Origin: a virus | Length of the DNA stretch: 44,365 bases | IMG/VR virus record: IMGVR_UViG_3300036785_000423 | Span: 1-44,365 of that record | Strand: one strand, 5' to 3' | Shown: piece by piece, positions 1-44,365 of the stretch | Numbering within the stretch: position 1 is the stretch's first letter | Layout of the letters: each line of letters begins with the position of its first letter | Notes under the pieces: generated by a model | Databases searched by the model: none | What the model was told of the DNA's origin: nothing | The model's input: the letters and a program-made list of their open reading frames with translations, nothing else | Translations under genes and position numbers: made by a program

Positions 1-1
1 G

Positions 2-931
2 ATGACGAACACGGTGCAGGCGCAGAACGCCGCCGCGCTGGCAAATGCTCAGATGGGCACAGCGGTCAGCCAGAGCAACGCTGCAGGGATCAATACCGCC
101 CAACAGACTGCCCAGCAGCTTGCCGGCACGAGGGACGTAACCCTACTGAATATCGCCAGCGCGAAGGATCTGGCTACGGTCAACAACGCATCGCAGCAGT
201 TCATCGCTCAACTGAACTCCAGCACGCAACTGTCGATACAGGACAAACAATCTGCCACGCAGCAATTCGTCGCGCAGCTGAACGCCAACACTCAGTTGTC
301 GATCGAGGATAAAGCGACAGCATCGTCACAGCTGATTGCGCAGTTGAATGCATCCACAAATCTGTCGATCCAGGACAAGCAGGATGCAACATCCATGGCA
401 GTCACTGGCCTCCAAACATCCATGCAAAAGTATCTCGGCGATCTGGGTGCCAACACACAGTTGACGGTGCAGCAGCGTTCGGCTGCCGCGACGGCGGCAC
501 TAGCGGCCGTGAACAACGCATCGGCTCAGCAAATCGCGCAGATCCAGGGGAACACGGCGATGACGGTGGCGCAGCAACAGACGGCAGTGCAGCTTGCCAT
601 CTCACAGATGGATAACACTAACAAGCTCCAGGTCCAGCAGATGCAGAACGATGGAAGCCTCCAGAACATCGCGACGAACGGGGCGATCAATACGGCAATT
701 CAGAACATCACGAACAACAACAAGACGCTGCTCCAGACCTCGCAGGGCGCGGCCGGTCTCTACAACCAGGCGCTCACCAACCTCTCGAACATCATCACCA
801 ATCCGAACCTGTCGCATGATCAGCAGACGGCGGCGCTAAATGATGGCGTTGCAAATCTGAATGCCGGGCTACAGTCGCTGGAGCAGATTGCGTCGAACGT
901 GTATGCAAACACGAACTTGACGTTCTCCTGA
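2..931 (+). CDS. Coiled-coil repeat virion protein (309 aa)
   Basis: The protein is rich in Gln, Ala, Asn and Thr and has no Cys. Its first half carries a 22-residue repeat at about residues 62-127, each unit following the pattern QQFxAQLNxxTQLSIxDK, then more degenerate copies to about residue 220. The pattern predicts an elongated helical or trimeric rod. The C-terminus (NPNLSHDQQTAALNDGV) resembles the ends of podoviral virion proteins of unknown role. It lies just after the portal if the genome is circular, and the next gene starts inside its stop codon (TGATG). If the window is linear, the true start could lie upstream, because ATG is the first full codon available. The function is inferred as structural; the family is not recognised. 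Confidence 0.75.
   Translation: MTNTVQAQNAAALANAQMGTAVSQSNAAGINTAQQTAQQLAGTRDVTLLNIASAKDLATVNNASQQFIAQLNSSTQLSIQDKQSATQQFVAQLNANTQLSIEDKATASSQLIAQLNASTNLSIQDKQDATSMAVTGLQTSMQKYLGDLGANTQLTVQQRSAAATAALAAVNNASAQQIAQIQGNTAMTVAQQQTAVQLAISQMDNTNKLQVQQMQNDGSLQNIATNGAINTAIQNITNNNKTLLQTSQGAAGLYNQALTNLSNIITNPNLSHDQQTAALNDGVANLNAGLQSLEQIASNVYANTNLTFS
185..382 (+). repeat. Three 66-bp in-frame tandem repeats
   Basis: Three consecutive 66-bp units encode 22-residue blocks built on AQLN-x-x-T-x-LSI-x-DK. Protein similarity is higher than DNA similarity, so these are old in-frame duplications that set the length of a helical rod. Confidence 0.8.
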
Positions 932-3817: not shown

Positions 3818-3824
3818 CAACGGC

Positions 3825-4073: not shown

Positions 4074-4086
4074 CGCTGGGGTACTC

Positions 4087-4548: not shown

Positions 4549-4549
4549 G

Positions 4550-4852: not shown

Positions 4853-5024
4853 CTGATGTCTCCGCCCCTGATCCGCGAGGCGCCGGGGTAAGTGTCGCCA
4901 GCCATTCGGCGATGATCTTGGCGGCCAGCGACGAAACGCTGCGGTGATCCGCTAGGGCTGCAAGTTCCAGGGCTGCCTTCACGGCAGGGTCCAGTCGGAC
5001 CCAGATTTTTTCAGACTTCGTCAT
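4845..5024 (-). CDS. Ribbon-helix-helix DNA-binding protein
   Basis: The sequence fits the Arc/CopG fold: a short N-terminal strand (EKIWVRLDPAVKAALE), a turn, and a second helix (HRSVSSLAAKIIAEWL). Such proteins dimerise and read operators with the N-terminal strands. ATG at 5024 is preferred because the strand then begins a few residues from the N-terminus as is usual; an in-frame ATG at 5042 would add six residues. As first gene of the leftward cassette it probably autoregulates it. Less than 50 bp separates it from the divergent transglycosylase gene, so both promoters must overlap there. Confidence 0.65.
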   Translation of the reverse strand: MTKSEKIWVRLDPAVKAALELAALADHRSVSSLAAKIIAEWLATLTPAPRGSGAETSDD

Positions 5025-5071
5025 AGACCACACATAGGACATCCGCTAGTGAATGTCAAGGGTCGTCTACG

Positions 5072-5914
5072 TTGTCAATCCTGAATGGTCTCCCCGGCGA
5101 GCCTCGGCAGAACCCCGGCGGCCTTCCCGGGCTTGGGCAGTCCCTAGGGGAACTGGCGCGCGCGTGGGCTATGGCCCAGGGGGACTCCGCTGACGCCGCC
5201 ACTCGGGAGCGCCCTGCGGCGACGTCGCTGCTGAACAGCACGCCCGCTACGCCTGCGCCAGAGGCTGCGGCAGCGGCACCGGGGGGCGAGCCGGCACAGA
5301 CGGCGGCCACCACCGTAAAGGGCGTGCCGCCCGACCTGCTGCCGATCTACGCGGCCGCAGCGAAGCGAACCGGCATCCCGGTTGACGTGCTGATCGCCCA
5401 GGCCAAGCAGGAGTCCAACTTCCGCAACGACATCATCGGCAACGCCGGGGAAATCGGGCTGCATCAGATCCTGCCATCGACCGCCCGCAATCCCGGGTTC
5501 GGAATGTCAGGCATCGATCCGGCAACGCTGAAAGACCCTGCCGTCGGCATCAACTTCGCCGCCGACTACCTTAGGGCCAGAGCCGGCCAGGACGCCGATT
5601 TCAGCAATCCCAAGGTGATCGACGCGGCACTGAGGGCATACAACGGCATGGGTCAGGGCGGAGATCCGAACTACGTCGCGAATGTGCGCCGCTATATGCC
5701 GCCCGCGCAGCAGCCGCTCGGTGGGTTGCGCGGGCAGTACGCCTTCAACGACACCGGCATTCTGAATGGCGCCGTCGTCCCGCCGCCGGTCCGTCCACCG
5801 TTGTCACAACTTCCGTCGCCAGCGCAGGAAGCCCCGACAGGCTACACTCTGACGCCTTACGGGCTGGTCCCGACCGCGAGCTGGGATCGCTACATGGCCG
5901 GACGAACCGGATAG
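5072..5914 (+). CDS. SLT-type lytic transglycosylase
   Basis: Residues 85-200 form a soluble-lytic-transglycosylase domain, which cleaves the MurNAc-GlcNAc bond of peptidoglycan. Visible landmarks are the catalytic Glu in QAKQESNF (E114), GEIGLHQILPSTA (126-138, the GLMQ motif) and RAYNGMG (188-194, the AYN motif). The first 80 residues are a low-complexity Pro/Ala/Gly leader without a signal peptide, and about 75 residues follow the domain. The predicted start is TTG at 5072 with AAGGG about 10 nt upstream; no ATG comes earlier in frame. Its place beside internal virion proteins points to a virion-associated enzyme used in DNA entry, although no other endolysin was seen and it could also serve in lysis. 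Confidence 0.85.
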   Translation: MSILNGLPGEPRQNPGGLPGLGQSLGELARAWAMAQGDSADAATRERPAATSLLNSTPATPAPEAAAAAPGGEPAQTAATTVKGVPPDLLPIYAAAAKRTGIPVDVLIAQAKQESNFRNDIIGNAGEIGLHQILPSTARNPGFGMSGIDPATLKDPAVGINFAADYLRARAGQDADFSNPKVIDAALRAYNGMGQGGDPNYVANVRRYMPPAQQPLGGLRGQYAFNDTGILNGAVVPPPVRPPLSQLPSPAQEAPTGYTLTPYGLVPTASWDRYMAGRTG

Positions 5915-5924
5915 GAGCAGCGTG

Positions 5925-7397
5925 ATGGCTGGTTTTAGTTTCCTCAACGGGATCTCCAGCATGGGCGCCGGCATGGCGCAGTTTGCCGGCAACATCGGAT
6001 TGGACATGGAGAAGGCGCAACTGCAACGCCAGAATCTGGCTATGGCCGATCAGCTTTCGCGAGCGCACGAGACGGAAGTGTCGCAGCCGTTCGCGGCCAG
6101 TCAGCTTGCAGCGCAGCAAGCCGGCGCGTTGCAGCGGACACAGATGGAGACCGGCACGCAACAGCAAGTGGCCGGCATACAGGCTGGCTCATCGAAATAC
6201 GCAGCCGATGTTGGGGCCAGAAGTGCCGCTGCGCAGGTTGCTGGCGAGATAGAGCGTACGCGGATGACGCTCGGCGCCGACACGCCGGAAATGAAGATGT
6301 TGCGAGCATTTAACATCCTGCCGGCGACGGGTAATCTGCCGGCTGACACGGCTGCTGCGGGAGGTGGCGGCTCGACGCCCGCCGCGGCCGGCACAGCGAC
6401 CGATGCAGGCGCAGCGCCAGCCGCCGCCGGCACAGCGGCGCCATCCGATATGGACCGCGCACGACAGTCGATTACCAACAAGCTGCTGGGGCTGCCGCAA
6501 CCAGGCTCGGAGGACGCGCTTCGCCGGGGCATTGCCGCAGACGTCGCCGCCGACCCCGCATTCAAGTACAAGACCGCCGGGCAGAAGGGTATCGAGGCCG
6601 AAAAAAGGTTCAATGTAGCCACTGCGAAATCGCTGGCCCCCGAGTCTATAGAGGGGAATGCCTACGCGATTGCAGGTTATCAACAGGCGCCGCTGTCGGG
6701 TTTAGCCAGGAGCAAAGAAGGCGGCAACCAGATTATGTCGCGCGTTATGGAAATCAACCCTGACTATCAGGAATCCCGATACCCGGAAGTCAACAAGGCC
6801 ATGTCTGCATTCGGTGGCGGCGGTAAGGAAGGAGGCATCATCCGATCGCTCAACGTCGGCGTGCAGCACCTGGACGTGCTCGACCAAGCCGCGACTGCAC
6901 TTGGGAACAACGATGTAAGAGCGCTGAATTCCCTGCAAAACATGTTCCAAACTCAGTTCGGCGGTCCTGCCCCGACGACGTTCGACGCCCTGAAGCAGAT
7001 CGTCGGCACCGAGATCGAGAAGGCGATTGCGGGGAACATAGGCTCGGAAGGCGACCGAAAGCGTATAATGGACGGGCTGGATCGCGCGGGCTCGCCCGCC
7101 CAGTTGAAGAGCGTTACGGATGGGTTCCGCGCGCTGATGGTGGGACAACTCGCCGGTCTTAAAACGCAATATGAGGAGGCCACCGACTTCAAGAGCGGCC
7201 CCTTTGCGTTCGAGAACAAGCTGGCCCCGGAGACCAAAGCGAGGCTCCAGGGAAAGCCGCCCCCCGATGGCACTGCCAATGCTCCGCTACCGTTTCCAAA
7301 GTCCGCCGCCGAGGCCGTTGCCGGCAAGTATTACGCGACGCCAGGGCGCGGCACGGCTCGATGGGACGGCGAGAAGTTCATCATGGGGCCGCAGTGA
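5925..7397 (+). CDS. Internal virion protein (490 aa)
   Basis: This is a Gln/Ala-rich helical protein with a Gly/Met start (MAGFSFLNGISSMGAGMAQ), coiled-coil-like residues 25-125, an Ala/Gly linker at about 140-175 and a more ordered C-terminal half. AGGAG lies 7 nt before ATG 5925; a GTG one codon upstream is too close to it. It is followed directly by the 811-residue protein, an arrangement like the ejection-protein pairs of podoviruses. No catalytic motif is seen. Role in the ejection apparatus is inferred. Confidence 0.65.
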   Translation: MAGFSFLNGISSMGAGMAQFAGNIGLDMEKAQLQRQNLAMADQLSRAHETEVSQPFAASQLAAQQAGALQRTQMETGTQQQVAGIQAGSSKYAADVGARSAAAQVAGEIERTRMTLGADTPEMKMLRAFNILPATGNLPADTAAAGGGGSTPAAAGTATDAGAAPAAAGTAAPSDMDRARQSITNKLLGLPQPGSEDALRRGIAADVAADPAFKYKTAGQKGIEAEKRFNVATAKSLAPESIEGNAYAIAGYQQAPLSGLARSKEGGNQIMSRVMEINPDYQESRYPEVNKAMSAFGGGGKEGGIIRSLNVGVQHLDVLDQAATALGNNDVRALNSLQNMFQTQFGGPAPTTFDALKQIVGTEIEKAIAGNIGSEGDRKRIMDGLDRAGSPAQLKSVTDGFRALMVGQLAGLKTQYEEATDFKSGPFAFENKLAPETKARLQGKPPPDGTANAPLPFPKSAAEAVAGKYYATPGRGTARWDGEKFIMGPQ

Positions 7398-10033: not shown

Positions 10034-10114
10034 GACCCACCACATCGGCGACGTGACCGACCCGCAACGCGCGGTCGCGACGCCATGCGCAATCGCGCTG
10101 CGGAGCAATTCCCC

Positions 10115-24145: not shown

Positions 24146-24363
24146 GCCGAGCCATCCTGTCGAACCGGCGGATCAGGTGTCGGCATCCAATGCGATGGGT
24201 TTTTGACTTCGCGCCAAATAGGCTCCTGGTCGATGCTTTCGTATGACCAATAGAGCCATTGGCACAGATGGAAGTGGCAATCGGCATAGCGCCGATCGTC
24301 AGCCCATAGGTCCACATCTCGCCCATCATCCGGCGCAGTGTCGATCGGTTGCCAGTCAGTCAT
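24142..24363 (-). CDS. DUF551-like protein
   Basis: The 73 residues show the DUF551 pattern: WQPIDTAPDDGRDVDLW near the start and HWMPTPDPP near the end. This is a widespread small early phage family of unknown function. The gene overlaps its upstream neighbour by 8 nt and the downstream one by ATGA. Confidence 0.8.
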   Translation of the reverse strand: MTDWQPIDTAPDDGRDVDLWADDRRYADCHFHLCQWLYWSYESIDQEPIWREVKNPSHWMPTPDPPVRQDGSA

Positions 24364-32491: not shown

Positions 32492-33378
32492 CAGATGCTC
32501 CACCCCCTTTGACGTCGCCCGACTGCGACCTGCGCGGGTATGACTTCATGCCGCTGTTCGGCAAGCGGCTGTTCGAAAGCTGGTTCGAGGAGAAGGCGTC
32601 TGACCTGGAATTTCGGGTCGGGATCAGGCTGTGGTGGGAAGCCTGGACGCAATGCCCGGCGGCCAGCCTGCCGGACGATGATGCCAAACTCACGAGGCTA
32701 GCGGGGCTCGGACGTGACATGAAGACGTGGACCAGGATCAAGGCAGTGGTACTGCATGGGTTTGTGCGGTGCAACGACGGGCGTTTGTATCACAAGCTGC
32801 TCGCTGCTCTGGCGATCGAAGCATACCAGCGCAGGTTGAAGGACCGTGCTCGCCAGCGCAACCATAGGGCGGCAAGCAAGGGTGATGGAGACCACCCTAG
32901 CGGCGCGCATGTCACGCGGACAAACGGCCCTGTCACGCGTGACAACCCCCCTGTGTCACGCGGACAGACCCCCCATGTCACGCGGACAAACGGCCCTGTC
33001 ACGCGGACTCTGACCGAAAATCCGCGTGACCTCGCGCGGAGAGTAGAGACAGAAGAATCTTATATCTTACTTGAAGAAGGGGTACCAAACCCCGCGCGCG
33101 AGGGGAAAACCGACCCAATTCCGCCTGTCGCCGATGCCGTCGGGGAAACCGCGGCAGGCGGCATCGTGGTCAATCTGGTCACAAATCTCCGATCCACGGC
33201 GACCCGAGCAGCCGCAGCACGGCCGGAGCGGACCACCGAGCAGCAGGTCAAGGCCGTCGCCACCCAGCCGCCGACCAAGCGCCCGATCAAGGCCATCTAC
33301 GCCCCGGACGAACACCTGCGCGCCGCTCGCGAGCAACTTGCACGTCGGGCCGAGAGGATGGGCCGCGACGTCGCATGA
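32488..33378 (+). CDS. DUF1376-family replication protein hosting the iterons
   Basis: Residues 5-120 carry the DUF1376 pattern (FMPLFGKRLFESWFEEKASD, LWWEAWTQCPAASLPDDDAK, MKTWTRIKAVVLHGFVRCNDGRLY), a family commonly found in phage replication modules. The middle contains a repeated VTRTNGPVTR-like peptide that results from DNA repeats (32911-33030). The C-terminus is rich in charged residues and Ala (RAAREQLARRAERMGRD). It may act as an initiator or helicase loader acting on the repeats in its own gene. Confidence 0.75.
   Translation: MTDAPPPLTSPDCDLRGYDFMPLFGKRLFESWFEEKASDLEFRVGIRLWWEAWTQCPAASLPDDDAKLTRLAGLGRDMKTWTRIKAVVLHGFVRCNDGRLYHKLLAALAIEAYQRRLKDRARQRNHRAASKGDGDHPSGAHVTRTNGPVTRDNPPVSRGQTPHVTRTNGPVTRTLTENPRDLARRVETEESYILLEEGVPNPAREGKTDPIPPVADAVGETAAGGIVVNLVTNLRSTATRAAAARPERTTEQQVKAVATQPPTKRPIKAIYAPDEHLRAAREQLARRAERMGRDVA
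32911..33030 (+). repeat. Iteron-like cluster, candidate origin
   Basis: Five direct copies of GTCACGCG (four continuing GGAC, one GTGAC) start at 32911, 32932, 32955, 32977 and 32998, spaced 21, 23, 22 and 21 bp. An inverted copy (TCCGCGTGAC) lies at 33021-33030. The copy at 32932-32943 is a perfect palindrome, GTCACGCGTGAC. Spacing near two helical turns is typical of initiator-binding iterons. Confidence 0.65.
33051..33078. other. AT-rich stretch beside iterons
   Basis: About 28 bp are strongly A+T-rich (for example AATCTTATATCTTAC), unlike the GC-rich surroundings, and lie 20 bp after the last iteron. This matches a DNA unwinding element next to an origin. It is coding (ESYILLEEG), so coding chance cannot be excluded. 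Confidence 0.45.
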
Positions 33379-33602
33379 CCCCCACCGAGACCCGGGCCCG
33401 CAACGCCACCGAGCAGGAGGCAGCCGAAGCCTCCTGGCGGGCCCTCACGCCAGCCCAGCTCCGCGCCAAGGTCAGCGAGATCGAGCGCCTGCCGCGCGGC
33501 CTCAAGGCGATCTACGCCAGCATTCTCGCCACCGCCGTCGCCCGCCACGCCCCGCACCTCGCCGGACACCTCCCGCCAGCCTGGAGCGAGACAGCGCCAT
33601 GA
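33375..33602 (+). CDS. Small helical early protein
   Basis: A 75-residue Ala-rich helical protein (LTPAQLRAKVSEIERLPRGL) coupled by ATGA on both sides. No family was recognised. Confidence 0.55.
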   Translation: MTPTETRARNATEQEAAEASWRALTPAQLRAKVSEIERLPRGLKAIYASILATAVARHAPHLAGHLPPAWSETAP

Positions 33603-33745
33603 TCGACCCCTACCGCGCCGACGACCCGGTCGGCATCTCGCCCGAGCTCCGCATCCTGCTCGCGGGTATCGTCCTCGGCGCCGCCAGCGACGAGACATTC
33701 CGCCTCATCGCCAAAGTCTTCGCCTGGCTCGCGGGGGGCATGTGA
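33599..33745 (+). CDS. Small hypothetical protein with hydrophobic helix (48 aa)
   Basis: The product (MIDPYRADDPVGISPELR...) has one hydrophobic segment (ILLAGIVLGAASD) and a second apolar end (FAWLAGGM), so membrane association is possible. It is coupled upstream by ATGA, and the next ATG follows its stop with no gap. Confidence 0.5.
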   Translation: MIDPYRADDPVGISPELRILLAGIVLGAASDETFRLIAKVFAWLAGGM

Positions 33746-34183
33746 ATGGCTCGTGAGCACGGCCGCGTGTGCATCAACTGCCGCTACTGGAAACCAACCG
33801 CTCCACCAGGATGGACGTCGGACGAAACAACCGAGTTCAGCCTCTTCGAGCTCAGCCAGCACCTACACAAACTCGGTAACTACAGGATCGGTGAGCGCGG
33901 ATGGCCGGGAAACTGTGGCCTCCAGCCAACCCATATCCCCACATCGTCCGGCCACTCATGCGCCCAGTTCGACGCCGCCGTCCGCATGGTCAACACCCAT
34001 TGGGACATTTGGGCCGAAAGGCGCCAGCGATACGCCCAGACCGACAGACTCCGCGCCGAGATCAAGCGCCTCAAAGCCCTCGCCGCATCGCGCCTCGCCC
34101 AACTGCGCAAAAGACCAGCCAAACCCAAACGCGCCAAGACCATACAGCCCGAACCCAACGGGACAGCCGATCATGCCCCTTGA
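33746..34183 (+). CDS. Cys-containing protein with basic C-terminal helix
   Basis: The N-terminus has CINCRYWK and later GNCGLQ and HSCAQF, four Cys likely to hold one metal ion. The C-terminal 45 residues are a basic helix and Lys/Pro tail (RLKALAASRLAQLRKRPAK). It overlaps the NusG-like gene by 11 nt. Similar small proteins of unknown role accompany phage early genes. Confidence 0.6.
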   Translation: MAREHGRVCINCRYWKPTAPPGWTSDETTEFSLFELSQHLHKLGNYRIGERGWPGNCGLQPTHIPTSSGHSCAQFDAAVRMVNTHWDIWAERRQRYAQTDRLRAEIKRLKALAASRLAQLRKRPAKPKRAKTIQPEPNGTADHAP

Positions 34184-34802
34184 CCAATCAGCCACACACG
34201 CTGTATCCCAGCAGCCACACAGGCTATGCGGCCAGCCTCGCGAGGCTGCTACGCCTAGCGGATGCCGTCCACCCATCGGCATCCGATGGTTCGCCGTCAG
34301 CACCTACCCCCAGGCCGAACGACGCGCCATTCAGAACCTCGCCCAGGCCGGTTATGCTACCTACCTGCCCCTGGTCGCCGTCAGGCGCCGCGATCGCGTC
34401 CTGCGGTCCCTCGTCCATCTCGTCGAGATCCCGCTGTTCGCAAGCTACGCCTTCGTACGCTTCGACCGAGCCAAAGATCCCTGGTGGCCCATCATCCGAA
34501 CCCCGGGCGTCTATGCGCTCCTGATGGACGAAGCGGCCCAGAAGCCCATCCCCGTCACAGAGGGCGCTGTCGAGGTGCTGCAGGCGACGGAAGCCCAGCG
34601 CGCACTCATCCCCCCGCCAACCGCCACACTGGCACCAGGGACCGCCGTAAAGGTTCTGGCGGGTTTCTTTAAGGGGTGCCAGGCTGTAGTGAAGGCGGCA
34701 TTCCATCCGAAGGTGAGGGTGACCCTGATGGTCCTCGGAGGATTGAGGGACGTGACGCTTGACCTAGGAGACGTGTCTTCGATCCAAAGTCCGCCGGGGT
34801 GA
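34173..34802 (+). CDS. NusG/RfaH-like transcription factor
   Basis: After a disordered N-terminal 36 residues, residues 37-120 match the NGN domain (RWFAVSTYPQAERRAIQNL, YATYLPLVAVRRRDRV, LFASYAFVRFD, WWPIIRTPGVYALL), which binds RNA polymerase beta'. Residues 152-205 fit a KOW domain (LAPGTAVKVLAGFFKGCQAVV). NusG family proteins control pausing and termination. As the last gene of the rightward early operon and the nearest upstream of the late block, it may act as an antiterminator for late transcription. ATG 34173 is used; the family core needs no earlier start. Confidence 0.8.
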   Translation: MPLDQSATHAVSQQPHRLCGQPREAATPSGCRPPIGIRWFAVSTYPQAERRAIQNLAQAGYATYLPLVAVRRRDRVLRSLVHLVEIPLFASYAFVRFDRAKDPWWPIIRTPGVYALLMDEAAQKPIPVTEGAVEVLQATEAQRALIPPPTATLAPGTAVKVLAGFFKGCQAVVKAAFHPKVRVTLMVLGGLRDVTLDLGDVSSIQSPPG

Positions 34803-35268
34803 ACGAAACCGTGCGAGTATCGCGTTCAACATAAAGGATTTTCACCCCAGCGGCTTGCTGAGCTTTGCTTGGCCTCGTGAGATATCTCCCACTCTTCGAG
34901 CCCTTCGCCACCGACTTAACGTCAATCACCACGGGACTTTCCCCATGCTTCCAGGCAATGAAATCCGCAATCCCGGCTTGGCTAATGTTGCGGAATACGT
35001 CGTAGCCCTGTCGGATTAGCCACTCGCAGGCCATTATCTCAGCGAGCGCCCCGAGATGCTTGGAATCAACGCCAGGGACCTGGGGATTGCGTTTGAACTT
35101 GCCAATCTTGAAGCCAGTAATGCCCTTGTCAGCCTCATGAAATGCCTTGCGAGAACAAATGGTTGAGCAGTATTTGCCCTGCCCACGCGCAATTCGCGAA
35201 GGCAAGAGCAGCATTACCTTGCCGCATTCGAAGCATTCTCTCGTGACGCGCTGTATGTGAATTGACAT
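34669..35268 (-). CDS. PD-(D/E)XK endonuclease-like protein with zinc finger
   Basis: The N-terminus is a zinc-finger-like set (C12, C15, C34, C38: CFECGK and CSTICSRK). Residues 70-120 fit a restriction-endonuclease-like core: LGALAEIMACEWLIRQGY with E77, AGIADFIAW with D102 and VVIDVKS with D116 and K118. The last 134 bp lie antisense to the end of the NusG-like gene. Leftward orientation apart from its neighbours suggests an independent or acquired gene with a defence or homing role, although repair of branched DNA is also possible. Confidence 0.75.
   Translation of the reverse strand: MSIHIQRVTRECFECGKVMLLLPSRIARGQGKYCSTICSRKAFHEADKGITGFKIGKFKRNPQVPGVDSKHLGALAEIMACEWLIRQGYDVFRNISQAGIADFIAWKHGESPVVIDVKSVAKGSKSGRYLTRPSKAQQAAGVKILYVERDTRTVSFTPADFGSKTRLLGQASRPSILRGPSGSPSPSDGMPPSLQPGTP
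34796..34848 (+). terminator. Possible structured end after NusG-like gene
   Basis: GGGGTGAA (34796-34803, containing the stop) is mirrored by TTCACCCC (34841-34848), and inside it GAACG (34801-34805) pairs with CGTTC (34823-34827). The nested dyad could fold in RNA, but there is no following U-run and it lies in the opposing coding sequence. Confidence 0.25.
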
Positions 35269-35296
35269 CAGATGGGTCTCGCTAGGTCCAGTCCAT

Positions 35297-35309
35297 TGAT
35301 AAAGTATCA
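35297..35309. promoter_or_regulatory. Palindrome TGATA-AAG-TATCA
   Basis: A perfect 5-bp-arm palindrome lies in the divergent region and overlaps the -10 of the leftward nuclease promoter candidate. It could be an operator for that gene. Confidence 0.35.
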
Positions 35310-35331
35310 CAAAAAACCACTGCGGAGTGAA
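35303..35331 (-). promoter_or_regulatory. Promoter candidate for leftward nuclease
   Basis: On the minus strand TTCACT (35331-35326) and GATACT (35308-35303) are 17 nt apart, with an A/T-run in the spacer. Transcription would begin near 35296, 28 nt before the ATG. Confidence 0.35.
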
Positions 35332-35391
35332 CTCGTCGCCGCCCACGACCTCACCCCAGCCGCAGACCTCGCCGCGTAACCGGAGATCACC

Positions 35392-35871
35392 ATGGCACTC
35401 GCCCCAGCTGCCCCACCACCCGATCCAACCGCCGGCGCTGGCATGGCTGGCGGTATGGCAGGCCCGGGCATGGCTGCCGGGCCCGAGCCAGACGCCGACA
35501 CCGACGACAATGTGCTGGTCACTATCTGCCAGGCGCCAGGCGGCGGTTACACCGTCTACGCAGGCGACGAACCCGAAGGCGACCAGGGCGAGCCGCCCGA
35601 GACCGGCGACATGAGCGAGGCCGACACCGACGCCATGGGACCGGCCGGAGCGCAGCCAGCAGGCGGGGGCAATGGCGGTGCTGAAGCCGCTGAACCGCAG
35701 CCACAAGGCCAGCCGGCAGCCTCCATCGGCGAGGCGCTCAAGCTCGCCATGGACATCATGCGACAGAGCGAGAACAGCGCAGCCGGTGGCCCCAACGACC
35801 AGTTCGCCGCAGGCTTCAACGCCCCCAAGGCGCCAACGCCCGCCGCAGGCTCGCCAGCCCAGAAGTACTGA
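35392..35871 (+). CDS. Acidic Gly/Ala/Pro-rich protein at start of late block
   Basis: This 159-residue acidic protein is low complexity except for a short folded-looking segment (NVLVTICQAPGGGYTVYAGDE) and a helix near the end (SIGEALKLAMDIMRQSEN). GGAG lies 8 nt before the ATG. As first gene of the late operon before the terminase it could be a packaging or head accessory protein; no family was recognised. Confidence 0.6.
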   Translation: MALAPAAPPPDPTAGAGMAGGMAGPGMAAGPEPDADTDDNVLVTICQAPGGGYTVYAGDEPEGDQGEPPETGDMSEADTDAMGPAGAQPAGGGNGGAEAAEPQPQGQPAASIGEALKLAMDIMRQSENSAAGGPNDQFAAGFNAPKAPTPAAGSPAQKY

Positions 35872-35875
35872 CGCG

Positions 35876-36124
35876 ATGCCGCTGTCACGGCATAGCAGCA
35901 TGAGCGAGCAGCTAATCCTCGAAGCACTTGGCGTCTATCGCGATCGATCTGCGGCGCAACTTGTCGAACTGACCGGACTTGGTGCTGGGTCGCTGTATCC
36001 AGCATTGCTGTCACTGGAGGCGAGCGGCGCGATCGAAAGCCGATGGTTCAATGAGGAGGGCGCCTGGCCGCGACGCCGCGTGTATCGTCTACCCGAGGCG
36101 GCGTCTCAAAAACATGACGCGTGA
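35876..36124 (+). CDS. PadR-like winged-helix protein
   Basis: The 82 residues resemble a minimal winged helix: LILEALGVYRDRSAAQLVEL, then GLGAGSLYPALLSLEASGAI (recognition helix region) and a wing (RRRVYRLPE). PadR-type folds bind DNA as dimers. A second ATG at 35900 would remove eight residues. In the late operon it might regulate late genes or serve as a DNA-binding packaging factor. Confidence 0.65.
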   Translation: MPLSRHSSMSEQLILEALGVYRDRSAAQLVELTGLGAGSLYPALLSLEASGAIESRWFNEEGAWPRRRVYRLPEAASQKHDA

Positions 36125-36158
36125 TAATCCCAGTTATCGCGAGTAGCGCAATTCAATC

Positions 36159-36365
36159 ATGGCAGCCACCGTTCCACCCACGCTTGACGAAGCCATAACC
36201 AGAGCGCGGTCGCGGACCCTAATGGCCGCGAAGATCTTTAGCCGTCTCATGGCTGAGTTCGATGGCAATCTGGAATACTGCCACGAAGCCATGGAGGAAG
36301 TGCTGGATGCCGCCGATCAGCTGGCCACGTTGGAAAATCTGCAACACGAGAACGCCAGACGCTGA
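36159..36365 (+). CDS. Small helical protein
   Basis: A 68-residue, mostly helical protein (AITRARSRTLMAAKIFSRLM) with acidic second half. The following start region overlaps its stop (TGATG). No family was recognised. Confidence 0.6.
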   Translation: MAATVPPTLDEAITRARSRTLMAAKIFSRLMAEFDGNLEYCHEAMEEVLDAADQLATLENLQHENARR

Positions 36366-36418
36366 TGCCGCCTCCCGTTCCAGCCCCCCGCATCGGAAAA
36401 ACCACAGGAAACCGGCCC

Positions 36419-36595
36419 ATGCCGTCCAAGTCCGCATCCCAGCAGCGCCTCATGCGCGCCGCAGCCCACACCAAGGGCGGCTACGGTGGCGTGCCCATGG
36501 CCGTCGGCAAGGACTTCGTCGCAGCCGACAAGAAGGCCGGCAAGCGCAAGCTGCCCAACCGCATCGGCCGCGGCCTGATCAATCGCGGCGCATGA
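36419..36595 (+). CDS. Small basic phage protein of SKSxxQQRLM type
   Basis: The 58-residue product begins MPSKSASQQRLMRAAAH, followed by GYGGVPMAVGKDFVAADKK, a motif set seen in a small family of unknown role near phage structural genes. ATG 36419 is preferred because AGGAAA lies 8 nt upstream and the family begins there; an in-frame ATG at 36365 would add 18 Pro-rich residues. Confidence 0.7.
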   Translation: MPSKSASQQRLMRAAAHTKGGYGGVPMAVGKDFVAADKKAGKRKLPNRIGRGLINRGA

Positions 36596-36753
36596 GCATG
36601 AACGCCCTCGAACGCATTGCCGAGCTGTTCCGCACCGCCCGCATGGCCGGCTGGACCGACGAAGGCGTCGCCGCCCTCGTGCTCGCCGAACTCGGGCTGG
36701 ACGAGAACGGCAGCCCGATAGAGCGCGAGCCACAACCGGCGCGCGAAGCGTGA
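36592..36753 (+). CDS. Small helical protein (53 aa)
   Basis: The product (MSMNALERIAELFRTARMAG...) is two helices with a TDEGVAALVLAELGLDENG end. ATGA links it to the upstream gene, and it ends 20 nt before the terminase small-subunit candidate. Confidence 0.55.
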   Translation: MSMNALERIAELFRTARMAGWTDEGVAALVLAELGLDENGSPIEREPQPAREA

Positions 36754-36773
36754 AGCGCACTGTGTGCTAATCT

Positions 36774-37136
36774 ATGCCAATTTCCAGAACATCGGGACAG
36801 GGTCGTAGAAAAGGAATACCAAACAAGGCGACCGCCGAGATCAAAGAGCTTGCCCAAAGATGGGGGCCTGCCGCAATCGCCAAACTCGCGATGATGGCCG
36901 GCCTTAATGGCGCCGGCATCGCCAAGCAGGAAGCAACCCGCGTCGCTGCAATCAAGGAACTGCTCGACCGTGGCTACGGCAAAGCACGTCAGCCAATTAC
37001 CGGGGGCGATGATGACGATCCGCCAGTTACCATCTCATTCCGCTGGGCGGATGCAGTAGTACCAGTCGATGGCCCGTCACTTGGAGATATCACTACCGTT
37101 CTGTCCGAGGCCGTGGCAAAGACCACTGATCGATGA
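36774..37136 (+). CDS. Terminase small subunit candidate
   Basis: The 120-residue protein opens with the basic GQGRRKGIPNKAT motif shared by a group of phage DNA-packaging small subunits and related DNA-binding proteins, then a helical part (EIKELAQRWGPAAIAKLAMM). It directly precedes and overlaps TerL by 68 nt, which is the usual position. TerS proteins recognise the packaging site. No direct proof is visible. Confidence 0.65.
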   Translation: MPISRTSGQGRRKGIPNKATAEIKELAQRWGPAAIAKLAMMAGLNGAGIAKQEATRVAAIKELLDRGYGKARQPITGGDDDDPPVTISFRWADAVVPVDGPSLGDITTVLSEAVAKTTDR

Positions 37137-38370
37137 CCCGGCACCGCGCATTGTCGCTGTCGTGCATCGCCGAGCTGGCAAATCGTCCGCGCTCCTTTGG
37201 CGCGGCTTCAAGCGCTGTCTGATCGAACGCAAGACACTACCGCGCGTCATCCACATTCTGCCGTATGGCGTCATGTGGCAGCGCACTGGACTTTGGGACC
37301 AGGCAATCCGAGCGGCAGATGCAATCCCAGGCGCAGTGCCGTGGCGGTCGCGGCTGGCAATCGACCTGCCGAACGGCGGCACATGGCAGGCCGGTGGTGC
37401 CGATAACCCGGATAGCTGGCGCGGCGGCTATGCCGACGAGGCAATCATTGACGAGTTCGACGATACCCCACAAACGCTGGTGCCTTTGGTCATCGAGCCA
37501 ATGCTTGCCGACCGCGGCGGAACTCTGGTGCGTAGCGGCACACCCAAAGGGCGCGGTCTGTTGCAGGCGGCATTCGAGCGGGCAAGAACCGCCCCAGGCT
37601 ACAACTCGTACTTGCTCGATTGCACGATGACCAACACGCTGACGACGGCAGCTATCGAACGGTTGAGGCAGGAAATGAGCGGGGAAGAGTTCGCCCAGGA
37701 GATGATGTGCAGCTTCGTGGCGCCGAACTCCGGCAGCTACTACGGCAAGCTGATGCAGGAGGCCGAGACCGAGGGCCGCATTACGACGGTTCCATATGAC
37801 CCGCGGTTGCCCGTCACGACAGGATGGGATTTGGGCATGGACAACGCCACGTCCGTCTGGTTCGCGCAGATCACACGCTCTGGCCAGTGGCGCATCTTCG
37901 ACCACTTCTCCGATATACGCTCCGGCCTCGCCGATACCGTGCGCGTGCTGGCGCAGAAGCCTTACACATACGCCCGGCATCTGCTGCCGCATGACGTGGA
38001 GGTCGACGAGCTCGGCACTGGCCGCAGCCGTCGCGCGACATTGCAGAGCCTCGGGATGCGCAATATCGTCACCGTGCCGTCAGGCCCGGGTGCGGTGAAG
38101 GACGGCATTAACGCGGTCATGGTTGTGCTGCCAATGTGCTGGTTTGACGCCGAGCGCTGCGCCGCAGGGCTGAAAAGCCTGCGCTCCTATCGCCGCGAAT
38201 GGAACGAGGCGCGGCAGGTATGGTCCGCTGCGCCACTTCATGACTGGGCGTCCGATGATGCCGATGCCTTCCGCACATTGGCCATGGGCGCGCGCGAGAT
38301 CGACGATCAGCCGATGCCGAAGGTGCCGGCATTCCGCGAGAGCATCCGCGGTATCGGGATGTTGGGGTGA
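37069..38370 (+). CDS. terL: Terminase large subunit
   Basis: The protein packages phage DNA using ATP and cuts it. The ATPase half has Walker A HRRAGKSS (33-40), Walker B AIIDEF (125-130, D128 and E129) and a coupling segment (RSGTPKGRG, 155-163). The nuclease half has GWDLGMDNAT with D254 and an acidic DWASDDADAFR near residue 400. The length, 433 residues, is normal. The start lies inside the small-subunit candidate; ATG 37069 places the adenine-binding FCPRPWQRP at its usual distance from Walker A. Confidence 0.9.
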   Translation: MARHLEISLPFCPRPWQRPLIDDPAPRIVAVVHRRAGKSSALLWRGFKRCLIERKTLPRVIHILPYGVMWQRTGLWDQAIRAADAIPGAVPWRSRLAIDLPNGGTWQAGGADNPDSWRGGYADEAIIDEFDDTPQTLVPLVIEPMLADRGGTLVRSGTPKGRGLLQAAFERARTAPGYNSYLLDCTMTNTLTTAAIERLRQEMSGEEFAQEMMCSFVAPNSGSYYGKLMQEAETEGRITTVPYDPRLPVTTGWDLGMDNATSVWFAQITRSGQWRIFDHFSDIRSGLADTVRVLAQKPYTYARHLLPHDVEVDELGTGRSRRATLQSLGMRNIVTVPSGPGAVKDGINAVMVVLPMCWFDAERCAAGLKSLRSYRREWNEARQVWSAAPLHDWASDDADAFRTLAMGAREIDDQPMPKVPAFRESIRGIGMLG

Positions 38371-38374
38371 AGCC

Positions 38375-38587
38375 ATGAGCGGGCGGACCTCCCTTTGGCT
38401 GCGCACTGAGGATGGCTGGCAGGAACATTGGGCATCAGCTCATGATGTCGAGGGCGCTAAGCAGCCGACGGCGTGGGCAGTTTCCACATGCATGCTGTGC
38501 CATCGCCCATTCAATTACATTATGGTCGACCGCGCACCGCAACCGCTAACATGCAGATTGTGCGATGACGCCAAAGGTGCCGGTTAG
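38375..38587 (+). CDS. Zinc-ribbon protein after TerL
   Basis: This 70-residue protein has two CxxC pairs (CMLCHRPF and CRLCDD) spaced 27 residues apart, a zinc ribbon. It follows terL by 4 nt. Small zinc proteins near terminases may aid packaging, but this is not shown. Confidence 0.6.
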   Translation: MSGRTSLWLRTEDGWQEHWASAHDVEGAKQPTAWAVSTCMLCHRPFNYIMVDRAPQPLTCRLCDDAKGAG

Positions 38588-38591
38588 GTGA

Positions 38592-38753
38592 ATGGCATCG
38601 CTGATCAATAACGCGGCGCGCGCCATCCGTGCCTGGCTAGCGCGCCAGTCTGGCATAACAAACGGCCAGGCGTTGCTGTTCATGTTCGTGTTCATCGTGA
38701 CGTGGGACGGGCTCTATCTGGTTTACAGTACGACCAGGGCATTCTGCAGGTAA
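38592..38753 (+). CDS. Single-span membrane protein (53 aa)
   Basis: The product starts MASLINNAARAIRAWLAR and has one apolar span (ALLFMFVFIVTWDGLYLVY). AGGTG precedes the ATG. Its opening resembles the opening of the next gene (MPSLINDAQRP), suggesting a partial duplication of the start region. Function unknown. Confidence 0.55.
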   Translation: MASLINNAARAIRAWLARQSGITNGQALLFMFVFIVTWDGLYLVYSTTRAFCR

Positions 38754-38760
38754 ATGATCG

Positions 38761-40209
38761 ATGCCGTCGCTGATCAATGACGCACAGCGCCCGGCGAACG
38801 ATCCGACTCGCCTGAGCGGTGACACGTCGCTGCTCAACGGCGATCCGCTACGCAGTGGCGCCCCGACGCTGGCCGATGCATACTCATACAACGCGCATGC
38901 GCTGGCCGATTGGGTGGCAGCGCAGCGGGCGGTATCGGCTGAGCGCGGATTGTGGGACGAGGCGAAGGGGGCGCCGACTGCGGCAGGTGCGCGCGATGCC
39001 GCGATGCAGGTCGCGCAGGGTGTAGCGCTGGCGAGCACCGCTCCGGGCGAGGTGCCGAAGCCATCGCCCTTCAAGATTGGCGAACCTGAGATGCTGAACT
39101 ATCAGCATGGACAGAAAGATTTGATTGTTCGAGCGCACGACTCTGCCGGCAATCAGATCGGCAGTTTGAATTACTCCGAGTATGGGGGCGTGCCGCAGAT
39201 CGATTACATTAACGTCGATCCGAGTATGCAGCGGCATGGCGTAGGAAGCGCGCTGGTCAATCGCGTGGCCGAAGACTACGGCGGATATCACGGCATCGAA
39301 TGGAGCAATCAGACCGACGAAGGAGCTGCGCTCAAGGCCGCACTGGATTCGCAGCATGCCATCCGCGCATTCCACGGCAGCCCGGCCGAGTTCCCACCAA
39401 CACCGAATAACCCGCTTGGGGAATTCGACAACGCGCGCATTGGCAGCGGGGAGGGCGCGCAGGCGTTCGGTTATGGGCATTACGTGGCGGGGAATGAGGG
39501 GGTCGCTAAGGGCTATCGTGATGCGCTGCGCCGCACGGATTACCCGACGTCTACGGGAGGCTACATTCCTGATTGGGTGGGGAATAGTATTGATCGTGTG
39601 AAAGATGATCCGAATTTGGTTAAGGGTGTAATAAACGGCCATCTGCAAGACTTTGAAGGGCGGTTGGCAGATGCCCAGTCTGAGATGAAAACTAGTCACC
39701 AGCCATGGCTTGCGCAGGATAGAGCAGTCGGACTCCAGAGGATTATTGATGACCTCAAGGGTATACGATCTGGTGATGTTACGATGTTACCGCGTGGCCA
39801 CATGTATGAGGTAGAGATAGCGGCCGACCCGCAGCACTTCCTCGACTGGGACAAGCCGCTGTCAGAACAGAGCAAGCAGGTGCAGCAGGCTATGGGGAAG
39901 GTGTTGACACCTAGCAACCTGCAAGAGTTCACGGCAGGGCAAGGCAAGTACATGACCGGCGGCGAAATGCACGACTTTATCGGTGGTCGTATTAACTCTC
40001 AGCAAATCGCTGGCCAGATGCAGCAAGCCGGCATCCCCGGCATCAAATACCTCGACGCAGGCTCGCGCGGCGCTGGCGAGGGCACGAGCAACTACGTCGT
40101 GTTCGACCCGTCCATCATGCGCATCGTCCGCAAGTACGCCGTGCCGGCGTTCGCGACCGGCAGCGCCATCCCCGCCGCAATGGGCGGCTCGGCACAGGAC
40201 AGCCAGTAG
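38761..40209 (+). CDS. GNAT / ADP-ribosyltransferase polyvalent protein
   Basis: Residues 110-195 look like a GNAT acyltransferase (INVDPSMQRHGVGSALVNRV, with RHGVGSA as acetyl-CoA loop). Residues 200-455 match a phage ADP-ribosyltransferase of the polyvalent-protein type: AFHGSPAEF (His 205 region), IGSGEGAQAFGYGHYVAG (227-244) and a closing GIPGIKYLDAGSR...NYVVFDP. ADP-ribosyltransferases use NAD+ to modify host proteins. Proteins of this kind are often packaged and injected with phage DNA. The N-terminal 100 residues may be a packaging signal. It lies between terminase and portal. Confidence 0.75.
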   Translation: MPSLINDAQRPANDPTRLSGDTSLLNGDPLRSGAPTLADAYSYNAHALADWVAAQRAVSAERGLWDEAKGAPTAAGARDAAMQVAQGVALASTAPGEVPKPSPFKIGEPEMLNYQHGQKDLIVRAHDSAGNQIGSLNYSEYGGVPQIDYINVDPSMQRHGVGSALVNRVAEDYGGYHGIEWSNQTDEGAALKAALDSQHAIRAFHGSPAEFPPTPNNPLGEFDNARIGSGEGAQAFGYGHYVAGNEGVAKGYRDALRRTDYPTSTGGYIPDWVGNSIDRVKDDPNLVKGVINGHLQDFEGRLADAQSEMKTSHQPWLAQDRAVGLQRIIDDLKGIRSGDVTMLPRGHMYEVEIAADPQHFLDWDKPLSEQSKQVQQAMGKVLTPSNLQEFTAGQGKYMTGGEMHDFIGGRINSQQIAGQMQQAGIPGIKYLDAGSRGAGEGTSNYVVFDPSIMRIVRKYAVPAFATGSAIPAAMGGSAQDSQ

Positions 40210-40215
40210 CGCCAC

Positions 40216-40452
40216 ATGAGCGACCACACGCATCGCATCGCTCATTGGCTTCGGCTCAACTACGTTGGGTCGGTAGTCGCGGCGACTGACCGTAATGGCT
40301 TTGTCTGGATTGGTTTCAAGTGCGCTAAGTGCGGAGAGGTTCGAGGCATTCATGTCTCGCCTCTTGCAACGACGGCGGGCTTGACGCGCTCCGCCGCGAT
40401 GCGCCTGGAGCAATGCAAGCCATCACAACCACCACTAGAGAATTTTCAGTAA
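40216..40452 (+). CDS. Small zinc-binding-like protein
   Basis: This 78-residue protein contains FKCAKCGEVRGIHVSP, one CxxC knuckle, preceded by an antiparallel-looking pair of strands (VGSVVAATDRNGFVWIG). It overlaps the next gene by 40 nt. No family was recognised. Confidence 0.55.
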   Translation: MSDHTHRIAHWLRLNYVGSVVAATDRNGFVWIGFKCAKCGEVRGIHVSPLATTAGLTRSAAMRLEQCKPSQPPLENFQ

Positions 40453-40781
40453 GTGAGCGAGAGGAGATTGTCATAGAGATCATGAGCGAAGATCCAGAAG
40501 AGTGGGCTGAGTTTACTCCCGAGGTTCGGGCCTATCTGCGCGCGACTAAGCCTCTGTTTCCTGTCTCCGCCGTCGATCTGATCAAGCCGTTTGTAGAAGC
40601 GACCACAGATGATCAGCATTCTATCAAGACCCAAGTCAGCTACCGAGATGCCGATGATCTAGCAGAGCAGATAGCCAAGTTCATATTCCCAAGCACTTTG
40701 AATCCCCAACGGCGTGAAGCACTTGAGTGGCTGCTGAAAGCGTTCGCTGCTGAGATCAAGCGCAGTGCCATAGAACCATGA
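40413..40781 (+). CDS. Hypothetical protein (122 aa)
   Basis: A helical, acidic protein (SEREEIVIEIMSEDPEEWAE; RREALEWLLKAFAAEIKRS). ATG 40413 has GGAG 3 nt upstream, a tight spacing; an in-frame ATG further upstream would add a region overlapping the previous gene. Codon use here is less GC-rich than around it. Function unknown. Confidence 0.5.
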   Translation: MQAITTTTREFSVSEREEIVIEIMSEDPEEWAEFTPEVRAYLRATKPLFPVSAVDLIKPFVEATTDDQHSIKTQVSYRDADDLAEQIAKFIFPSTLNPQRREALEWLLKAFAAEIKRSAIEP

Positions 40782-40793
40782 GTGGAGATTGTC

Positions 40794-41141
40794 ATGCCGT
40801 TTGATTGTCTGCCCGAGCACCTGTTGACCGACCTCGTCAAGCTGAAGCTGGCGCGGGACGGGATTGCCGGTGACAGTGGCTGGGCTCAGAGCGAGCTTGG
40901 CCTGGCCGATGAGCCGCAGCATTGTGTCATTGGCTGGCTGCTGGTCGCCGCCGATTGGGATGCGCGCGAGGCCACGCGGCTGCTCGTGAACTATGTCTAT
41001 CCGGTGTTGCCGGAGAGCGCGCGGAACGGGTTCAAAGGACGTGCTTCCGCGGTGTATCATTACAACGATGAGGAATGCCGGACGCAGCAGCGCGTCGTGC
41101 GTCTGTTCGACGATGCGATCCGGCTTGCGGAAGTTGCGTGA
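40794..41141 (+). CDS. Hypothetical protein (115 aa)
   Basis: The protein begins MPFDCLPEHLLTDLVKLKL and has a mixed helical body with an aromatic stretch (VIGWLLVAADWDAREATRL). GGAG lies 7 nt before ATG 40794, favoured over GTG 40782. The sigma-like gene starts within its stop codon (GTGA). Confidence 0.55.
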   Translation: MPFDCLPEHLLTDLVKLKLARDGIAGDSGWAQSELGLADEPQHCVIGWLLVAADWDAREATRLLVNYVYPVLPESARNGFKGRASAVYHYNDEECRTQQRVVRLFDDAIRLAEVA

Positions 41142-41905
41142 ACCCTGTCGAAGATGACCTTATTCTGCGCCTCGACGTCAACCGGGCGATAGCAACCAGG
41201 CTACGGCCGCGCGAGCGGGAGATCGTCCGGGATTATTGCCGGTATGGCCGGACGTTTCTGGAAACTGGTGCGTTGCACGGTCTTAGCATCGAGCGCACCC
41301 GCCAGCTTTATGCCAGGGCAGAGCGGCGGCTGCGGGTGGCGTTGGCGGAGCCTCAACAGGTCTCGCGCAATAGCAGACTGCCAATCGGGTTCGATCGCGC
41401 AGCATTTCTCCGCCACATGCGCGGCCTCATTGCGCTGCGCGAGGAGCGTCGCAGCAGGGAGTTCGAGGACGATTACGCGCTCGTGGCTGGGCTACTGCAG
41501 CACGAGCGGGAGAAGAAGCGGCCTGCGGCACCACCGCCACCGCCACCGCCACCGCCACTGCCGCAGCCGCTGAATGCTCATTCCGAGGCTGCTCTGACCA
41601 GAGTTGCCTCTACTGCGCTCGATGCGTTCATGGCGCTGCTGAACCCAACCGAGGAAGGCAGCGAGACACTCGGGGCGATGTTCACCACTTACACCTTCGA
41701 CTGCTTCGACTCCGCTTCGGTACGGAATGCCGTTCGAATTATGCGGGCGGCGATGCCGGCTTCGGTCCGGCTGTCCAGATGGATAATGCCGATCCCGCCT
41801 GGAATGTGTGGCGCCGTGGTCGCCAATGAATATGCCTGCGTCCGGGCGCTTTCTGTCGGGGCAGCGCTGCAAACGCGCCTCGATATAACCTGGGACCCGA
41901 TATGA
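41138..41905 (+). CDS. Sigma-70 region 4-like protein with poly-Pro linker
   Basis: Residues 20-72 have the sigma region 4 pattern: RLRPREREIVRDYCRYG, TFLETGALHGLSIERTRQLYARAERRLR, in which the HTH (LHGLSIERTRQLYARA) would read the -35 element. No region 2 (-10 binding) is present. A run of about nine Pro (about 133-141) and a separate 100-residue C-terminal domain with Cys and hydrophobic segments follow. GTG 41138 is the only suitable start and is coupled by GTGA; the portal starts in its stop codon. It may steer host polymerase to late promoters or act as an anti-sigma decoy. Confidence 0.65.
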   Translation: MNPVEDDLILRLDVNRAIATRLRPREREIVRDYCRYGRTFLETGALHGLSIERTRQLYARAERRLRVALAEPQQVSRNSRLPIGFDRAAFLRHMRGLIALREERRSREFEDDYALVAGLLQHEREKKRPAAPPPPPPPPPLPQPLNAHSEAALTRVASTALDAFMALLNPTEEGSETLGAMFTTYTFDCFDSASVRNAVRIMRAAMPASVRLSRWIMPIPPGMCGAVVANEYACVRALSVGAALQTRLDITWDPI

Positions 41906-44365
41906 GCAGTTCCACCTCCGACAGTTTGCTCGGTCTGCCGCCCGACGTGCGCGCGGCGCTGCGCCCGCATGTGCCGGCCCCGCCGGAGGTGCTGTCCGCC
42001 ATCGGCGTGCAGATCGCGGCGCGGCGCGAGGAGGCGAAGGGCGCCCGCTCGTCGTCCGGCATCGAGGATGTCTGGCGCGAGGCGGAGGAGGCATACCTGG
42101 GCGTAGACGCGCTCAACCGCCACGAGTTCGCCAACGCCCGCTGGAGCAAGCCGATGAGCTCCGACGGACCAGTTGATACCGGCCGCGGCCCGCGCGAGAC
42201 CGACCACAAATCCACCGTCTATCTGCGGTTGACGTCGCGCTACGTGGACGCTGGCGTGGCGAAATTGACCGAGATCCTCCTGCCGGCCGACGACAAGGCG
42301 TTCAGCTTCAGCGAAATGCCGGTGCCGGCGCTGCTGAAGGCCAGCGAGGATGAGAGCCAGGTCGTCCACAGTGACCTGGGAGCCCCGCTGACGCGCCCGC
42401 TGGCGCAGGGCGAGCCAATGCCCGCACAGCCGCCGCAAGCCGCCCCAGCGCCTCCCACGCCCCCGCAGGCCGGCATTGGCCTTGCTCCACCACTGGGGCA
42501 GCCGGCCATGCCGGGCGCCGCATCGGTTCCCTCACCCGCCGGTGCGGCGCCTGCTCCAGCAGCAGAACCGCCGCGCGTGCCCCTCACCGTCAAGGACCTG
42601 GCGGTTGAGGCGATCGAACTCGCACGCAAGAAGGCCAAAGCGGCGGAACAGCGCATCTACGACTGGATGGAGCAGACGCAGTATCGCGCCGAGATCCGCA
42701 AGGTGATCGCGGACGCGGCCCGCATCGGCGTCGGCGTGCTCAAGGCGCCAGTGCCCAAAAGCAGGAAGGTGATGGCGATCACCGAGGCCAAGGGTGGCGG
42801 CATCAACCTGGAGATCCGGGAGAACATCGTCCCCGCGGCGGTCTGGGTTGATCCATGGAACATCTTCCCGGACCCCGCTTGTGGGGAGAACATCCACGAC
42901 GGCGACTATGTGTTCGAGCGCGACCACATGAGCGCGCGACAGGTCCGCGAGTTGCGGAAGCTCGACGGCTATATCGGCGATGCGATCGACAAGGTGCTGG
43001 AGGAGGGGCCGAACAAGATCAACAGCGAGGCCGACGGGCGTCGCAGCGACGCCAAGGCCACCAAGGGCCGGTTCGAGGTCTGGTACTTCTACGGCACACT
43101 GACGCGGGACGAAATGGCGGCCATCGACCAGGCATCAGGCAAGCCGCCGGCGCAGTCCGACGATGGGCCGGACCCGATGCACGCCATCGTCACGCTGATC
43201 AACGACAGCGTGGTGCGCGCGGCGATCAACCCGCTCGACAGTGGGAACTTCCCCTATCACTCGATGCCCTGGCAGCGCCGGGCGCAGCACTGGGCCGGCG
43301 TCGGTGTCGCCGAGCAGATGCGGACGCCGCAAAAGGTCACCAACGCGGCGCTGCGGGCGCTGCTCAACAATGCAGGCAAGTCGGCTGGCAGCCAGTTGGT
43401 CATTGACCAGGGCGCCATTCGCCCGGCGGATGATTCATGGACCATCACGCCGGACAAAATCTGGTTCAAGACCAACGACGGGCCCCAGGATGTGCGCCAG
43501 GCCATGATGGCCATCCAGATCCCGAACGTCACCGAGCAGCTGATGCAGATCATCCAGCTGGGCGAGCGGTTCGCGGAGGAGACTACCTCCATTCCGCTGA
43601 TCACGCAGGGGCAGTCGGGCGCCACGACGCCGGACACCTTCGGGGCCGCGCAGCTGCAGAACAACAACGCCAACCAGCTTCTGCGCTCGATCGGCTATGC
43701 ATTCGACGACTACATTACCGAGCCGGTGGTGCGGCAGTATTACGAATGGCTGCTGCTCGATACCGACGTGCCGAACGAGGAAAAGGGTGAGTTTCAGATC
43801 GATGCGCACGGGAGCATTGCGCTGGTCGAGCGCGCCATCCAGGATCAGAGCATTGCCCAGATGGCAGGCGTGGTGGCCAATCCGCTGTATGGCCTGGACC
43901 CGAAGCGCTGGGCCAAGCTGTTCCTGAAGTCGAAGCGGCTGGACCCGGACGACATCGCGTATTCCAAAGAGGAGCAGGAGAAGCTGGACGCCGCTCCACC
44001 GCCCGAGGCGCCCCAAGTTGCCGCTGCTAAGATCAATGCCGACACGCAGTTGAAGCTCGGGGTGATGAAGCAGACGGCCGAACAGCAGACCTCGCAGGCA
44101 GAGGCGCAGGTTGCCGCGGCAGCGCAGCAGCTCGAAGGCGGCAAGATCGCTGCCGACCAGCAACAGGCGCACGTCGACGCCACGATCCGGCTGCATGAAC
44201 TCCAGACGCGCCACGATCTCGCATTGCTCGACTACGCCAACAAGCACCGCATGTCGCTCGATCAGGCCAAGACGGCGCTGGCCAAGACCGCGATGCAGCT
44301 GAACACCGAGCGGGAGCTGAACGCGGTCAACAACCAGGCTGCCGACCGCAAGCATCGGCGTGAAA
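41902..44365 (+). CDS. Portal protein (runs off right edge)
   Basis: At least 821 residues. The portal forms the dodecameric gate at the head vertex. Typical podoviral portal features are present: an N-terminal helical start, a Pro-rich insert (about residues 170-225), AARIGVGVLKAP, VWVDPWNIFPDPACGENIHDGDYVFERDHM, FPYHSMPWQRRAQ, GVGVAEQMRTPQKVTNAALRALLNN and a long helical barrel at the end (residues 700-821). The ATG overlaps the preceding stop. The frame is open at the last base; if base 1 follows, it ends one residue later at a TGA at positions 3-5, giving 822 residues and an ATGA overlap with the first gene. Confidence 0.85.
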   Translation, partial: MSSSTSDSLLGLPPDVRAALRPHVPAPPEVLSAIGVQIAARREEAKGARSSSGIEDVWREAEEAYLGVDALNRHEFANARWSKPMSSDGPVDTGRGPRETDHKSTVYLRLTSRYVDAGVAKLTEILLPADDKAFSFSEMPVPALLKASEDESQVVHSDLGAPLTRPLAQGEPMPAQPPQAAPAPPTPPQAGIGLAPPLGQPAMPGAASVPSPAGAAPAPAAEPPRVPLTVKDLAVEAIELARKKAKAAEQRIYDWMEQTQYRAEIRKVIADAARIGVGVLKAPVPKSRKVMAITEAKGGGINLEIRENIVPAAVWVDPWNIFPDPACGENIHDGDYVFERDHMSARQVRELRKLDGYIGDAIDKVLEEGPNKINSEADGRRSDAKATKGRFEVWYFYGTLTRDEMAAIDQASGKPPAQSDDGPDPMHAIVTLINDSVVRAAINPLDSGNFPYHSMPWQRRAQHWAGVGVAEQMRTPQKVTNAALRALLNNAGKSAGSQLVIDQGAIRPADDSWTITPDKIWFKTNDGPQDVRQAMMAIQIPNVTEQLMQIIQLGERFAEETTSIPLITQGQSGATTPDTFGAAQLQNNNANQLLRSIGYAFDDYITEPVVRQYYEWLLLDTDVPNEEKGEFQIDAHGSIALVERAIQDQSIAQMAGVVANPLYGLDPKRWAKLFLKSKRLDPDDIAYSKEEQEKLDAAPPPEAPQVAAAKINADTQLKLGVMKQTAEQQTSQAEAQVAAAAQQLEGGKIAADQQQAHVDATIRLHELQTRHDLALLDYANKHRMSLDQAKTALAKTAMQLNTERELNAVNNQAADRKHRRE

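Follow-up and report, generated by a model that had tools for sequence, protein, structure and literature searches.

Gene content of the window

The DNA analysed here is a stretch of 44,365 nt (the window). Its late genes lie in two blocks, one at each end and both on the plus strand, with a predicted antiterminator gene just upstream of the right-hand block.

1–931, plus strand: g1, cut by the window's left edge, with about 157 codons likely missing upstream
1–20587, plus strand: second late block, g1 to g13, including an SLT transglycosylase gene and long fibre-like genes
5072–5914, plus strand: SLT transglycosylase, second late block
33753–34802 (domain about 34281–34802), plus strand: predicted antiterminator of the NusG/RfaH type, directly ahead of the first late block
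35392–44365, plus strand: first late block, with TerL, GNAT-like, sigma-70 region 4 protein and portal genes
37069–38370, plus strand: terminase large subunit (TerL), first late block
38761–40209, plus strand: GNAT-like, first late block
41075–41905, plus strand: sigma-70 region 4 protein, first late block
41902–44365, plus strand: portal protein gene, cut by the window's right edge, with 821 of about 849 codons present

The portal frame (41902–44364) is open at the window edge. Its product matched PHROG 332 (E = 3.1e-44), PHROG 1216 portal (E = 6.7e-17) and Pfam SU10_portal, the last above cut-off. As a guide to packaging mode, TerL was compared with solved terminase structures, but the matches were weak (best E = 0.013). 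The protein encoded at 41075–41905, between TerL and the portal, carries a sigma-70 region 4 domain above the Pfam cut-off, and such a protein also adjoins the portal at three other loci (L001, L002 and L013). The single frame at 38761–40209 matches a GNAT acetyltransferase and an endolysin family at its end; these pieces are arranged otherwise in relatives, in some cases past the portal.

Outside the late blocks, we note recombination genes on the minus strand (20592–24329), comprising a RecT-like annealing protein, a Mu Gam-like end protection protein and a weak match to endonuclease VII. A gene for a replication protein (32488–33378) contains direct repeats at 32908–33005, in 32-nt units (CATGTCACGCGGACAAACGGCCCTGTCACGCG), near the peak of cumulative GC skew. 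The repeats may mark a replication origin whose iterons sit within the gene for the initiator, as they do in phage lambda.

The window ends and a contig that bridges them

Both end genes are truncated in the window. At the right edge, we compared the portal with its relatives in a scan of IMG/VR that used the portal protein as query and returned 52 portal loci, of which 8 did not reach the portal end and 1 ended before its stop. The 43 loci with the stop in view include near-copies and are not independent cases, but in all of them the portal extends past the window's last residue (range 12–111 residues), and 41 of the 43 extensions carry a PG[RK][AS] motif. The initial annotation had taken the portal to end naturally at the window edge, which is contradicted by these extensions of at least 12 residues and by the 28 further codons that precede the stop in the nearest relative, contig G001. 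The window's first gene follows the portal directly in none of the 43 relatives. Instead, a capsid gene lies 1.0–4.6 kb downstream of the portal in 36 of them, and the other seven contigs end no more than 2.3 kb past the portal stop.

At the left edge, the ATG at 2–4 had been read as a gene start. Comparison with related contigs shows it to be an internal methionine of the longer gene g1, whose true start likely lies 157 codons upstream, the position of the MSGS start ahead of this ATG in G001. Of six contigs compared, five have the frame open upstream as far as the conserved MSGS start, while G009 yielded no result; g1 homologues in G002, G003, G005, G008 and G009 occupy stop-to-stop frames of 456–503 codons. 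Base 1 is G in the window versus C in G001, which fits the third base of a preceding alanine codon. Judged from G001, the window's end genes are neither whole nor do they join into whole genes.

G001 is a 20,805-bp IMG/VR contig (IMGVR_UViG_3300036785_000724) that overlaps both ends of the window.

2–412, no strand assigned: stretch overlapping one end of G001, 411 nt ungapped, 92.2% DNA identity and 98.5% protein identity
44239–44365, no strand assigned: stretch shared with the other end of G001, blastn 127/127 without gaps, terminal in both contigs

The left overlap contains 28 synonymous and two non-synonymous codon differences. Across the two overlaps, G001 carries portal residues 780–821 at 100% identity and g1 residues 1–137 (window numbering) at 99%. 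Among IMG/VR viral contigs, the window's last 35 nt were found only in G001. No other contig in IMG/VR shared the window's first 50 nt (the window's own record was possibly excluded from that search), and none but G001 itself overlapped G001's far end. A final k-mer of 127 is usual in assembly, and we infer that the exact 127-nt overlap is the trace left by a short-read assembler at a shared k-mer. No publication was found that supports the k-mer settings used in assembling metagenomes. The CheckV paper describes end repeats found at k-mer lengths (PMC8116208).

G001 also supplies the head gene that the window lacks. Of the essential head set, the window has TerL and the portal and no major capsid protein, so the set is incomplete. 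The G001 major capsid protein matched PHROG 1357 (E = 9.7e-55) and belongs to the N4-gp56 family, scoring 186 bits against TIGR04387 versus a curated cut-off of 60. With the capsid protein of contig G002 as query, 6 of the 10 records searched were matched; the window was among the 10 and gave no match. The initial annotation had named a capsid gene located after the portal and ahead of the first gene as evidence that would speak against its reading, and such a gene was found.

The remaining genes of the bridging segment are less clearly assigned. A scaffold-position gene is so named by place and size and had no family match, and three genes of about 166 codons were likewise without family matches. 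They are accompanied by proteins of 237 codons (weak tail match), 740 codons (amidase-type match) and 605 codons (fibre-like). In the window, the fibre-like genes at 12726–15923 and 15936–19760 have repeated modules in common (76%–82% DNA repeats). The end of the second (18186–18977) shows 74% protein identity to a 409-codon gene at 4928–6157 of G001 (L083), in a tblastx listing with many chance-level rows on both strands.

Extent of the genome

Taken together, the sequence comparisons indicate that the window is almost certainly a metagenomic contig that covers only part of a tailed-phage genome, the assembly having stopped within the portal gene on the right and within g1 on the left. Counting each overlap once (20,805 − 127 − 411) places about 20.3 kb between the window ends and gives a total of about 64.6 kb, of which the window would be an estimated 69%. 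We infer that the break was caused by strain variation at a k = 127 branch of the assembly graph. As seen in G001, the missing piece begins with the last 28 codons of the portal and finishes with the first 157 of g1; in between are the scaffold-position gene, the N4-gp56-family major capsid gene, the three genes of about 166 codons, and genes for tail and fibre-like proteins. The ATGA that the false join creates is a coincidence.

The length missing from the window's own virus appears to be about 20.3 kb, as measured in a very close strain. Because the left overlap is not exact, G001 could come from a sister strain and the length is an estimate. It is a serious possibility, at somewhat less than an even chance, that the window is indeed a fragment while G001 comes from another strain, so that the middle segment of the window's virus has a different length or different genes. 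Besides the 92.2% identity of the left overlap, the relatives lend weight to this reading. The distance between the points that correspond to the window ends is 20.3 kb in G001, 19.3 kb in G002, about 14.1 kb in G008, 10.8 kb in G005 and 10.2 kb in G009, so the segment varies in length, and the region between the 165-codon and 740-codon genes varies among relatives. However, the right overlap is exact over 127 nt, and G002, whose portal is 95% identical to the window's, has a similar distance to that of G001.

The initial annotation had proposed that the ends join directly, making the window a complete, circularly permuted genome of 44.4 kb. Its reading of the letters is correct: base 44365 (A) and bases 1–2 (GA) form AGA, and the TGA at 3–5 overlaps the ATG at 2–4. 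The join is thus frame-compatible, and circular maps are known within this phage group. The signature had been called rare, and it is uncommon, but it is not telling. When cut points were placed inside 16 plus-strand genes of the window (n = 2,000,000 random joins), 1.4% of joins gave an exact ATGA/GTGA-type overlap, and 2.3% had a start and a stop codon overlapping in any way close to the join. The ATGA signature is therefore mildly unusual and cannot by itself carry a conclusion of closure. Short-read contigs that are closed usually carry an end repeat. In the window, neither direct nor inverted repeats of 8–299 nt match exactly between the termini, and no end-to-end match rose above chance. 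The junction 19-mer (44365 joined to 1) was absent from IMG/VR viral contigs, a search from which the window's own record may have been excluded. We rejected direct joining on the missing capsid gene, the roughly 20.3 kb by which G001 connects the two ends, the lack of an end repeat, and the truncation of both end genes relative to all relatives examined; it is extremely improbable.

Equally remote is a genuine deletion, in the form of a derivative or a defective phage dependent on a helper, from which the 20-kb capsid segment is gone and whose remaining DNA has circularised: the window alone would have such a gene content and the join happens to preserve a stop and a start, but the right edge is the exact end of another contig (127 nt), as fits an assembly break, and the end repeat expected from a closed deletion circle is lacking.

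For an incomplete contig, absences from the window, such as that of a capsid gene, are the wrong basis for conclusions about this virus, and compatible frames with an overlapping start and stop where contig ends meet do not count as evidence that a genome closes. The missing third of the genome would be held in the public record IMGVR_UViG_3300036785_000724.

Circular map, late gene stretch and related phages

Although closure at 44.4 kb was not upheld, the circular map that had been proposed with it was retained in altered form: G001 overlaps both window ends, and G009 (62,855 bp), a close relative with the same gene order, closes on itself. The first 127 bp of G009 recur exactly at its end, which gives a closed length of 62,728 bp; G002 and G008 have no end repeats. 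From these sequences, the gene map of the phage group is circular. Such a map is as compatible with a collapsed terminal repeat as with headful-packaged, permuted virion DNA.

Gene order was compared using 44 query proteins (32 from the window and 12 from the bridge, E threshold 1e-6). G002, G008 and G009 all keep, on a single strand, the succession TerL, portal, scaffold, capsid, 166, 167, 165, 237, 740, g1, g2, g3, g4, SLT, g7 (numbers are codons). The examined part of G005 agrees with it from the portal onwards; G002 and G005 are partial contigs. The first late block has the same order and strand in G002, with the order from TerL to portal also in G008 and G009, and g1-g2-g3-g4-SLT-g7 lies downstream of the portal and capsid genes in G002, G005, G008 and G009. 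Per contig, between 21 and 28 of the 44 queries went unmatched in these four, mostly early genes and fibres.

The two late blocks had been proposed to form one transcription unit from 35392 round to 20587. Their genes do form a single co-directional stretch, which is however interrupted in the window by the absence of about 20.3 kb and with it spans about 50 kb. The antiterminator-like domain upstream of it matched an RfaH model at E = 6.2e-19, below that model's cut-off, and PHROG 6386, transcription antiterminator, at E = 3.2e-16. The true start of this gene is probably nearer 34281, because the first 176 residues of the annotated frame (33753–34802) resemble low-complexity, non-coding read-through. 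The phage may drive an unusually long late transcript via its own RfaH-type processivity factor, a tentative suggestion that we consider rather unlikely. Searching with an ops consensus, we found no exact ops-like RfaH site; one-mismatch matches numbered 17 versus 9.2 expected, a count reached in 2 of 100 shuffles, and on the late block's own strand none was located immediately ahead of it. A scan for promoters and terminators across 33000–44365 gave nothing above shuffles.

The nearest known systems are three metagenomic contigs and one annotated record. G001 overlaps the window at both ends and, unlike the window, contains the capsid region; it is itself partial (20,805 bp). G002 (IMGVR_UViG_3300036828_000180) has the same gene order, with portal and g1 proteins 95% and 84% identical to the window's, and also differs in containing the capsid region; it is a partial contig of 38,640 bp. 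G009 (IMGVR_UViG_3300046543_000285) is more distant (portal 70% and g1 55% identical) and keeps the same late order, but is closed by its exact end repeat, and most of the window's early genes and long fibre genes were not found in it at E 1e-6. One TAA falls within the portal match of this contig (42092–44533). The nearest annotated phage record is MW202426.1 (Caudoviricetes sp. isolate ctsTn925, circular, 49,511 bp), the only one of 32 matching phage records to cover at least 80% of the portal, with 42.6% identity over 87%. Its genes run TerL, portal, two small genes and capsid, the same TerL-portal-capsid order as in the window's group. Unlike the window's phage, it has a smaller genome and its TerL directly abuts the portal.
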